Source of the DNA: a virus | Direction: 5' to 3' (one strand) | IMG/VR virus record: IMGVR_UViG_3300033144_000541 | Location: 1 to 24,766 of that record | Length of the DNA: 24,766 nt | Shown: positions 3 to 24,766 of the stretch, in pieces | Position numbering within the stretch: position 1 is the stretch's first letter | How the letters are laid out: every line of letters begins with the position of its first letter | Translations under genes and position numbers: made by a program | The notes under the pieces: model-generated | The model's input: the letters and a program-made list of their open reading frames with translations, nothing else | Told to the model about the DNA's origin: nothing | Databases searched by the model: none

Positions 3-257
3 GCTCTTATGGATTCTTGGTTGGGTGGTATTAAGTATGACTGTAATGGACTACCAACTTATGTATATAAGGACTTCGAGGTTAGACGAGTCATATATTA
101 TCACGATGAGGCTGCATTTGATTGCAAGGAGGAGATAGCACAGGAGATACTAGACATGGGTATTAAGAGCATAGTTAAGGCAGGAGAGATGTTAAAGCTC
201 AATGTTCCTCTTGATGCAGACGGTAGTATAGGGAACGATTGGTCAAAAATTCACTAG
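3..257 (+). CDS. DNA polymerase, T7 gp5-like family A (C-terminal end, partial)
   Basis: This is the 3' end of a gene that enters from the left edge; the frame is open from base 3, so the ATG at 9 is internal. The product would be the replicative family A DNA polymerase. The visible part contains motif C of the palm, YYHDE (HDE about 24 residues after the ATG-encoded Met at 9, near codon 32), whose Asp binds catalytic metal. It also contains the characteristic end of T7 gp5: LDADGSIGNDWSKIH aligns with the T7 ending LDTEGKMGPNWAICH. That match also shows that the TAG at 255-257 is a genuine stop. The segment EEIAQEI after motif C also parallels T7 (EEIAQVV). The finger, thumb and exonuclease domains lie outside the window. 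The next gene follows after 10 bp, in the same operon. Confidence 0.88.
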   Translation, partial: ALMDSWLGGIKYDCNGLPTYVYKDFEVRRVIYYHDEAAFDCKEEIAQEILDMGIKSIVKAGEMLKLNVPLDADGSIGNDWSKIH

Positions 258-501: not shown

Positions 502-530
502 TTGACAAGGTGAGACAATGAGCGTATAAT
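502..530 (+). promoter_or_regulatory. Consensus sigma70 promoter
   Basis: TTGACA at 502-507 and TATAAT at 525-530 are both perfect matches to the bacterial housekeeping consensus and are separated by exactly 17 bp. Transcription should start near 537, about 25 bp before the ATG at 563. It would drive the 62-aa protein, the SSB gene and probably further rightward genes. It implies host RNA polymerase reads this arm. It is the only fully consensus promoter I found on the + strand. Confidence 0.88.
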
Positions 531-753: not shown

Positions 754-1344
754 ATGAGCAATAAAGAATACGAGAAAAAAGCAACCACTGCTGAGATGGT
801 AATGGTGGACTTCGATACACAGGTAGAGAAGAGAAAAAAATCAGACGGGAGTTCTAATGGAAGTTACGAAGGTACGAACATTATCTTCAAGGCGTTCGGT
901 AAGGTTAATGAGAAGGGCTTCACTACGAAGACGTATGAATTTAAACCAGAACTACGCGCTCAACTTGAAGCTGTAAACAAGCCTAAAGCTCTCTTCACTC
1001 TCAATCAATATAGAGAGGTAGGCGGTCAGTTCTGGAACATTGATTCTGTAGACGTAGGACATACAGCTCAGGAAGCCCCTTCTAAGCCCTCTGGAGGCTC
1101 GTCACAAGCTTTTAACAGTGGTGTGAACCCCGCAGCGGTGGGGCAAGCTATAAACCTCGCTGTGGACGCTCTAGGGTACAAGCATGGAGACTTACAAGAT
1201 GTTAACAAAGTGAGGAAAGCTATTGATTGGTACAAGGAAGTGAAGGAGTTGTTCACAGATAATTGGGAAGCTGCTGATAAAGAGCCTAGCCCCCCTCTTT
1301 CTGCTAAAGAAGATGCACAGTTTGAGGAGGATATTCCCTTCTAG
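754..1344 (+). CDS. Single-stranded DNA-binding protein (SSB)
   Basis: A 196-residue protein. Residues about 10-105 are a mixed-charge, beta-rich region with aromatic residues (TNIIFKAFGKVN, GGQFWNIDSVDV) that fits an OB fold. Residues about 106-125 form a Ser/Pro/Gly linker. The C-terminus ends in an acidic tail with EEDIPF, nearly identical to the DDDIPF tip by which bacterial SSBs recruit partners; T7 gp2.5 likewise ends in an acidic tail. The role would be coating ssDNA at the phage replication fork and recruiting polymerase and exonuclease. The ending at TAG immediately after the Phe supports TAG as a true stop in this genome. The neighbouring polymerase and exonuclease genes fit. The call rests mainly on the tip, size and context; the OB fold was not tested. 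Confidence 0.7.
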   Translation: MSNKEYEKKATTAEMVMVDFDTQVEKRKKSDGSSNGSYEGTNIIFKAFGKVNEKGFTTKTYEFKPELRAQLEAVNKPKALFTLNQYREVGGQFWNIDSVDVGHTAQEAPSKPSGGSSQAFNSGVNPAAVGQAINLAVDALGYKHGDLQDVNKVRKAIDWYKEVKELFTDNWEAADKEPSPPLSAKEDAQFEEDIPF

Positions 1345-1355
1345 CAAGCGAAGCG

Positions 1356-1390
1356 CACAGGGCTTGAGTTCGCTCAATGCCCGAGTGTTT
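1356..1390 (+). terminator. Hairpin downstream of SSB, possible weak terminator
   Basis: GGGC-TTGAG (1360-1368) pairs with CTCAA-T-GCCC (1373-1382) around a TTCG loop, with one bulged T. The stem is extended by CAC (1356-1358) with GTG (1385-1387) across a small internal loop, and TTT follows. The stem is strong but the T run is short, so termination may be partial. It may instead be the first helix of the structured region that follows. Confidence 0.4.
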
Positions 1391-1616
1391 ATATGTGGTG
1401 GAGTTAGGTCGATATAGGTTTCACGAGCATCTATATTGAACGCCAAGCTAGCTCTACCAACATATAAACATTTCGATGAAAAGAACTATGTCAAGTCGGT
1501 GTTTTAGGCACTGTATGAGTTGGTAGATCTCTAAAACTACCGCTTTTTGGATGTACAACAACTCTTTTATTGCATAGAGATTTGTAGATAGGTCACTATG
1601 CCTTACGTTGTATGTC
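1387..1616 (+). ncRNA. Candidate structured RNA in the SSB-downstream intergenic region
   Basis: The 295-bp stretch between the SSB stop and the ATG at 1640 holds no convincing gene but is dense in helices. Helix II: 1387-1407 pairs with 1448-1469 (21 bp, one bulged A at 1459, two G-U pairs). It encloses a second helix of 1410-1417 with 1431-1438 (8 bp, one G-U) and a 13-nt loop. Helix III: 1501-1507 (GTTTTAG) pairs with 1531-1537 (CTAAAAC), competing with 1522-1526/1537-1541 (GGTAG/CTACC). Helix IV: 1550-1559 pairs with 1607-1616 (10 bp, two adjacent G-U pairs), enclosing 1572-1577/1596-1601 (GCATAG/CTATGC). G-U pairs within otherwise continuous helices favour function as RNA over a DNA palindrome. 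No tRNA, hammerhead or riboswitch consensus was recognised, so its class is unknown. It would be transcribed with the SSB operon. Confidence 0.55.
1522..1548 (+). terminator. Weak terminator-like hairpin with competing pairing
   Basis: GGTAG (1522-1526) and CTACC (1537-1541) form a 5-bp stem followed by GCTTTTT. The right arm shares C1537 with the alternative helix GTTTTAG/CTAAAAC (1501-1507/1531-1537), which would also remove the loop of the small hairpin. The arrangement resembles a terminator/antiterminator pair, but the stem is short and this is an inference from pairing alone. Confidence 0.3.
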
Positions 1617-24327: not shown

Positions 24328-24766
24328 TTATTGTTGCCTTGCAGCTTGCAAAGCTTCAAATATATGTTTAGATCCGCCCTTAGTCCAATCAATACCTTCA
24401 GCAGGAGCCACTTCTTGTACTGAATGTTGAGCGAAGTTGAGCTGTTACCGGATCACTAGCCATTTGAGTCATACGATTTAGATCTACACCAAGCTTAGTA
24501 GCTTGTAGTTGAACTGCCTCTTTGTACTTATCCCCATATTTAACTTTCAACCTGGCTTCAGTTTCATCAAAGGTTTTGTCTGCAAGAGCTTTCACTGTTG
24601 CTGCATTAGCCTTTACTTGTCTATCTGCTAGGACTGCTTCTATCTGCGTTGCTGCAATAACTCCGATCTGTTCCTCACTAACTGAAGGGGTAACTTCTGT
24701 AGGTTGGCTATCCTGAGATGGTTGCTGTTGTAGGTTTAGCTTAGCTAAGGCATCATCAATCTTAGT
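24328..24766 (-). CDS. Scaffold (gp9-like) protein, C-terminal part, frame broken by 10-bp duplication; partial
   Basis: An open frame enters from the right edge and encodes a Gln/Asp/Lys-rich helical protein (KIDDALAKLNLQQQPSQ, DKTFDETEARLKVKYGDKYK) ahead of the capsid gene, as T7 scaffold gp9 does. It stops early at 24398 after TAQLRSTFSTRSGSC. Immediately after codon DPVTA the DNA contains an imperfect 10-bp tandem duplication (24423-24432 and 24433-24442, seven bases identical). Removing one unit gives TAQHSVQEVAPAEGIDWTKG and a further 17 residues ending LQAARQQ at TAA 24328-24330, 16 bp before the capsid ATG. DWTKGG-x(5)-EAL-x-AAR is the expected end of this family. The interrupted copy would make a protein lacking that C-terminus. 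The N-terminus is outside the window. Confidence 0.68.
24423..24442 (-). repeat. Imperfect 10-bp tandem duplication in scaffold gene
   Basis: Read leftward, GCTCAACTTC is followed directly by GCTCAACATT; the first seven bases are identical. Ten extra bases shift the frame by +1 and produce an early TGA. Deletion of one unit restores an uninterrupted reading frame to the stop just before the capsid gene. Confidence 0.82.

Follow-up and report, generated by a model that had tools for sequence, protein, structure and literature searches.

The window analysed here is the whole of IMG/VR virus record IMGVR_UViG_3300033144_000541 (24,766 bp, positions 1-24,766). Its major capsid protein shares 40% identity with those of the Pseudoalteromonas phages HP1 and RIO-1 and has more distant kin among other Zobellviridae-like podoviruses. 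The RNA region lies downstream of an ORF which a sequence-only reading had named SSB; the DIPF-type tail of the product fits this name, but the ORF (754-1344) has no Pfam or PHROGs match, so that the label is owed to the tail only and we refer to the gene as SSB-like. On the 3' side, a small ORF is followed by a gene called sigma-like in the same reading, an assignment upheld by profile matches (Sigma70_r2, 2e-8; PHROG sigma factor, 3e-13), and by a 5'-3' exonuclease gene. Scans with the sigma-like and exonuclease proteins retrieved no relatives. As judged from its motif, the perfect promoter at 502-530 likely drives the transcript containing the RNA, and no promoter of comparable quality adjoins the RNA itself. 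The near-identical contig L003 carries approximately 60 extra bases at window position 24435, close to the ORF that precedes the capsid gene; this contig is 99.9% identical in the overlap, but was set aside as a source of relatives because it spans structural genes only. The features of the locus are as follows.

502..530, + strand: perfect sigma-70 type promoter, TTGACA-17-TATAAT (motif match)
754..1344, + strand: upstream ORF, SSB-like, with an acidic DIPF tail; relatives at 65% and 54% identity
1360..1382, + strand: TTCG-loop hairpin immediately preceding the clamp (z -2.68; not found as such in relatives)
1384..1472, + strand: long helix overall, referred to as the clamp; its invariant strand is TGTGGTGGAG
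1384..1395, + strand: 5' strand of the outer clamp stem, AGTGTTTATATG, pairing with 1461-1472 (pair probabilities 0.78-1.00)
1390..1405, + strand: invariant 16-mer TATATGTGGTGGAGTT of the 5' arm, common to unrelated phages (viral contig scan)
1400..1406, + strand: 5' side of the inner 7-bp acceptor-like stem, GGAGTTA, pairing with 1449-1455
1407..1448, + strand: variable insert, here a hairpin of 9-10 bp (1410-1419 with 1429-1438)
1449..1459, + strand: 3' side of the acceptor-like stem plus ACCA (TAGCTCTACCA), the 3' arm of subtype B
1461..1472, + strand: 3' strand of the outer clamp stem, CATATAAACATT (pair probabilities, covariation)
1501..1537, + strand: GTTTTAG/CTAAAAC helix (z -0.43, not above chance; no relatives)
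1550..1616, + strand: 10-bp helix around GCATAG/CTATGC (z -1.17, not above chance; no relatives)

The region 1340-1640 folds with -91 kcal/mol on the + strand (z -3.4, none of 100 shuffles as good), compared to z -2.2 on the - strand. It had been described as built almost entirely of four successive RNA-like helices. All four can be drawn at their places and the G-U pairs ascribed to them are present, but only the first two fold better than shuffled sequence. Folded alone, the long helix (1381-1477) reached z -7.05 (0/200 shuffles as good), with nearly all clamp pairs at probability 0.99-1.00 in the predicted ensemble, and the segment with the TTCG hairpin (1355-1384) reached z -2.68 (2/200). 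The GTTTTAG/CTAAAAC segment (1477-1548) scored z -0.43 (54/200), the segment with the 10-bp helix (1548-1614) z -1.17 (25/200), and both together z -0.63 (51/200); moreover, the whole-region ensemble prefers other pairings in this 3' half. Since the third and fourth helices do not exceed shuffled sequence we discarded them, and the description as almost entirely helical is not supported for the 3' half. The fold signal of the region comes from the long helix and, less so, from the TTCG hairpin. Of the four, helix 2 alone could be traced in relatives: in L010, the closest of them, another hairpin takes the first position, and helices 3 and 4 are missing. The clamp 3' arm (1453-1466) is also complementary to 1514-1527 (TCTACCAACATATA/TATGAGTTGGTAGA), making an alternative fold possible, but the predicted ensemble favours the clamp.

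Eighteen further copies of the long helix were found in public contigs. L010 encodes an SSB-like protein 65% identical to that of the window and carries the same 17-mer TTATATGTGGTGGAGTT 3' of this gene. The 16-mer TATATGTGGTGGAGTT was scanned against 2.9 million viral contigs, and the opposite arm AGCTCCCCTTCATATA was scanned independently; both scans recovered largely the same loci. The 3'-arm scan, which left the 5' arm unconstrained, returned 14 true clamps with 5' arms that were identical or carried one change (L040, L041). An extra copy resides on a short phage-like contig within a Thalassotalea MAG, and among 395 genomes of the order of this MAG the only match was in that contig. The alignment (A3) comprises 18 elements including the window, with the shorter L017 as a nineteenth. 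Several 16-mer matches without partner arm were rejected as chance, and a degenerate two-arm scan gave no true new member among its new loci. BLAST against cultured phages detected no clamp element, and a search of phage DNA with the whole region gave chance matches only; a BLAST match in Vibrio phage K30 was rejected as it lies inside a coding region. Likewise discarded were L011 (the 54% SSB-like relative), which has no gap behind that gene, the 530-nt gap of the Zobellviridae-like phage MW202697, which folds no better than chance, and two gap regions of phage HP1. The latter (L009, 21710-21980 and 22484-22765) are group I introns (RF00028, 75.5 and 57.9 bits) that are absent from the annotated features of the HP1 record; the same model found no match in the window or the clamp loci. 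No Rfam 15 family matched the window or 14 relatives at gathering score, and the window slice gave only noise up to E 10. No description of the clamp RNA was found in the open-access literature, and the nearest kinds to this family, undescribed there, are phage tRNA-island RNAs.

The clamp consists of a near-identical duplex of approximately 21 bp that encloses an exchangeable insert of 36-149 nt. Two subtypes share an identical 5' arm. Subtype A, which accounts for 16 of the 18 aligned elements, has the arms AGTGTTTATATG-T-GG-T-GGAGTTA ... TAGCTCC-CC-TT-CATATAAACACT; it contains a small asymmetric internal loop in the duplex and ends in UAGCUCC-CCUU with no encoded CCA. In subtype B, represented by the window, L030 and L017, the same 5' arm is combined with TAGCTCY-ACC-AA-CATATAAA. 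The invariance of the inner clamp is partly imposed by the search patterns, with the exception that the 3'-arm scan left the 5' arm free.

The evidence for an RNA comes above all from the outermost 6 bp of the outer stem, which lie outside all search patterns and covary across the 18 elements. Here 105 of 108 cells are paired, G.U occurs in 8 cells versus A.C in 1 on the + strand, and four positions change on both sides, as seen in the variants AGTGTT/AACACT, AGTATT/AATATT, AGTTTA/TAAACT, AGATGA/TCATCT and AGATAA/TTATCT. Pairing fades past 6-7 bp outside, which indicates that the length of the clamp duplex is fixed. Over the whole structure 98.7% of the pair cells are paired and 24 cells changed on both sides; the covariation score of 0.234 compares with 0.089 in shuffles and was reached by none of 500, and slid-alignment controls were paired at 38-58%. 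To judge by the flanking ORFs, every copy is co-directional with its neighbouring genes. Covariation, the preference for G.U over A.C and the orientation together strongly support helix 2 as the phage-encoded structured RNA that the sequence-only reading had suspected. We consider it almost certain that the clamp-and-insert element is a real RNA family.

The carriers are largely unrelated. In an all-versus-all protein comparison the window shared 15 proteins with G001, the genome of L010, and 0-1 with each other carrier; G001 is also the only carrier with a homologue of the window capsid protein. The same comparison revealed no protein family common to all carriers, so that no phage-encoded partner can be named; L027 encodes a RecT-like annealing protein. 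Genomes hold one or two clamp copies each. The clamp is thus spread among phages that share essentially no proteins with the phage of the window. Of the roles suggested earlier, regulation of the sigma-like gene is not supported as a general function, since different genes follow at other loci, and replication priming finds no support, most copies not being beside replication genes.

In the window, L010, L017, L030, L033 and L040 the clamp stands alone between genes, and several loci, including the phage of the window, have no tRNA array nearby. Eleven copies are part of a tandem RNA array (L013, L019, L020, L021, L023, L025, L027, L035, L038, L041 and L066), in which most RNAs are enclosed by a long outer stem of their own and true tRNAs lie beside some clamps. 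One outer stem can hold different contents in different phages: the stem AGTGTTTATA/TATAAACACT encloses a clamp in L019, L021, L025, L027 and L038, but in L041 an oversized tRNA-Leu-like RNA; the stem AGATGATATA/TATATCATCT surrounds the clamps of L035 and L041, but in L021 it contains two tRNA-Arg genes and in L038 a tRNA-Leu-like RNA. The tRNA-Leu-like RNAs keep a CCA end and the D and T arms, with a long or broken anticodon/variable region; that of L041 scored 39.9 bits with the tRNA model. They reach up to approximately 175 nt (L023 10850-11026, - strand; L038 3284-3405; L041 880-1000, - strand), and in L038 and L041 an outer stem encloses them.

The arrays show conserved parts of their own at both ends. 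They begin with a conserved leader RNA (L013 10480-10580; L020 2800-2900, - strand; L025 1010-1165, - strand; L038 2935-3075; L041 1225-1385, - strand; L066 3095-3260, - strand), consisting of a terminator-like hairpin of 23-27 bp that ends in a T run and encloses a second hairpin, with which it competes for a shared 3' segment (AGAGCCTTAG/CTGAGG). From its sequence, this leader looks like an attenuator heading a non-coding operon. Two conserved non-coding stretches are found at the 3' ends of arrays, one in L021 (2240-2460, - strand), L041 (400-600, - strand) and L038 (3590-3790), the other in L023 (10285-10465, - strand) and L035 (520-700); both measure approximately 180-250 nt, are 74-95% identical between phages and have no Rfam match.

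The constant part of the clamp resembles tRNA-Ala. Its inner stem has 7 bp and is followed in subtype B by ACCA; 7-bp acceptor plus NCCA are present in the window and L030, and subtype A has the 7 bp and no CCA. Compared to ARAGORN-called tRNA-Ala from two genomes of the host order, acceptor stem and ACCA match at 16-17 of 18 positions in L030 and at 15-16 of 18 in the window (11-12 of 14 for the window acceptor stem alone), whereas seven other tRNAs match the clamp at 4-12 positions; this comparison, of nine tRNAs in all, was made after the fact. Relative to the closer tRNA-Ala (GGGGUUA/UAGCUCC), all clamps have A for G at position 3 and thus A3-U70 in place of G3.U70, the established identity element for alanyl-tRNA synthetase. 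Furthermore, the leader of one host tRNA-Ala gene pairs with CCA and trailer (ATGATGTG...CACATCAT). These similarities lend moderate support to a derivation of the clamp from precursor tRNA-Ala. The sequence-only reading had seen no recognisable tRNA: indeed, neither the tRNA covariance model (RF00005) nor ARAGORN called any clamp, yet the long helix is similar to the acceptor stem of tRNA-Ala together with its precursor ends. A search for T arms among the clamps found a complete one within the L020 insert only, and most inserts have neither T nor D arm. L020 also contains a tRNA-like RNA with the acceptor GAGUUA/UAGCUC, which remained below threshold with the tRNA-Sec model.

The inserts of the 18 elements do not align with each other beyond chance except for one marginal pair, and with a mean fold z of -0.25 they are no more structured than shuffles. 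L035 and L041 occupy the same slot of related phages: both arms match, and a stretch of 192 nt that covers the 3' arm and the flank downstream of it shows 95.8% identity, yet the two inserts are unrelated. The simplest reading is replacement of the whole insert rather than drift. Used as guides against their own genomes, the inserts gave no excess of long matches.

As a tentative interpretation, which we favour while regarding it as somewhat short of probable, the clamp may be an RNA scaffold of tRNA-Ala origin that is exchanged between phages and serves to protect and release a variable RNA. The inner 7 bp would correspond to the acceptor stem (GGAGUUA/UAGCUCY, followed by ACCA in the subtype of the window) and the outer 12 bp to the leader-trailer stem of precursor tRNA-Ala; the alanine identity pair G3.U70 would have been swapped for A3-U70 and the tRNA body replaced by the insert. 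The RNA would be transcribed inside a phage polycistronic transcript together with the upstream gene, the clamp would fold at once, and host enzymes acting on tRNA ends or two-turn duplexes (RNase P/Z/E or RNase III) would excise it, releasing a stable, uncharged RNA with tRNA-like ends on which the insert is displayed. The RNA family, its covarying clamp, the unrelated inserts, the spread among unrelated phages and the association with tRNA arrays are observed; we infer transcription, excision and the insert as the working part. Several points speak against such a scaffold: the majority subtype A (16/18) has no encoded CCA, several loci including that of the window have no tRNA array nearby, the likeness to tRNA-Ala was noticed post hoc in a comparison of only nine tRNAs, and the conservation of the 5' strand exceeds what pairing or an acceptor stem alone needs, which the scaffold model does not explain by itself. 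Recognition by RNase P is uncertain because most inserts lack a T or D arm.

A rather unlikely alternative is that the element marks a site of RNA processing between cistrons, comparable to the RNase III sites of T7. Host RNase III would then cut the two-turn hairpin and thereby determine where the downstream mRNA starts and how stable it is, and the insert would be no more than a loop. Such a signal would be in keeping with the fixed duplex of approximately 21-22 bp and the small asymmetric internal loop of subtype A, and in six loci (L010, L013, L017, L030, L033 and L040) the clamp ends 13-38 nt before a co-directional start codon. However, RNase III is only weakly sequence-specific, whereas the clamp sequence is near-invariant across unrelated phages; around a dozen elements including that of the window have no ORF start within 60 nt, and a neutral loop should shorten or drift rather than be replaced whole between 96%-identical flanks.

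The element could also be a counter-defence RNA, in which a fast-evolving insert mimics or occupies a variable host target, such as a toxin that cuts tRNAs, a type III antitoxin partner or another defence protein that binds RNA; the clamp would serve as common handle. The constant stem with its unrelated inserts, the replacement of inserts between close relatives, the neighbouring tRNAs and anticodon-less tRNA-like RNAs, and the spread among unrelated phages are consistent with such a role. We nevertheless judge it improbable, given inserts that are not unusually structured, no known target and no defence-related partner gene found.

Conserved arms around a variable spacer, inserts exchanged between otherwise conserved flanks and the SSB-like gene adjoining the window copy could also point to an element acting at the DNA level, namely an imperfect inverted repeat that folds as a single strand in recombination or replication like attC or REPIN. 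This is quite improbable in view of stem changes that favour G.U over A.C on the sense strand by 8 to 1, copies co-directional with neighbouring ORFs and numbering one or two per genome, and outer stems that hold tRNAs in other phages. Finally, a cis-acting leader controlling translation or transcription of the next gene, compatible with the position near the ribosome-binding site in several loci and with the pairing of the window 3' arm to 1514-1527, is very unlikely, as the following genes differ by locus, other RNAs follow in arrays and the alternative pairing is not favoured in the predicted ensemble of the window.

Under the scaffold interpretation, a wider reading can be considered, although we think it unlikely as a whole: unrelated lineages would share a constant tRNA-Ala-derived holder with swapped cargoes, often within tandem arrays in which each slot is taken by a tRNA, an oversized tRNA-like RNA without anticodon or an insert held by a clamp. 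Such cassettes at the RNA level would be under diversifying selection and directed at host factors that vary. Should the derivation from tRNA-Ala be true, phages made an uncharged RNA holder by dropping the identity pair of alanyl-tRNA synthetase. To judge from the tRNA-like RNAs arrayed next to the clamps, phage 'tRNA islands' may contain more than components of translation. To our knowledge, few well-defined structured RNA families are present in phage genomes and most known ones have no assigned function; the clamp family is easily recognised, and its constant and variable parts separate so cleanly that its role is testable by insert swap.

The design of a constant holder with variable cargo is unlike any described phage RNA known to us. 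With phage tRNAs and precursor tRNA-Ala the clamp has in common a 7-bp acceptor-like stem, in subtype B followed by ACCA (15-17 of 18 matching positions), the leader-trailer pairing and, in many copies, the position in tRNA arrays; it differs from them in lacking an anticodon and in most cases a T or D arm, and in having A3-U70 in place of G3.U70 and an insert of any sequence. The tRNA cluster of phage T4 encodes the stable non-tRNA RNAs RNA C and RNA D; these are likewise encoded among phage tRNAs, but we know of no constant clamp with exchanged inserts in them. The RNase III hairpins of T7 are intercistronic and span roughly two turns of helix interrupted by an asymmetric internal loop; the clamp is likewise a duplex of approximately 21 bp, with an internal loop in subtype A and an intercistronic position in the window and several loci, but unlike the T7 sites it hardly varies in sequence between unrelated phages, and its inserts are long and unrelated to one another. 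Integron attC sites and REPINs are conserved imperfect inverted repeats around a variable spacer, from which the clamp differs by its sense-strand RNA signature, low copy number and outer stems shared with tRNAs; by inspection, the attC cores RYYYAAC/GTTRRRY are absent from the clamp ends, which read AGTGTT..AACACT, AGATGA..TCATCT and similar. GOLLD and ROOL, the covariance models of which matched neither the window nor 14 relatives, are structured phage and prophage ncRNAs of unknown function that frequently lie close to tRNA islands; they are elaborate and several hundred nt long (PMC12286853). The clamp element measures approximately 80-200 nt.
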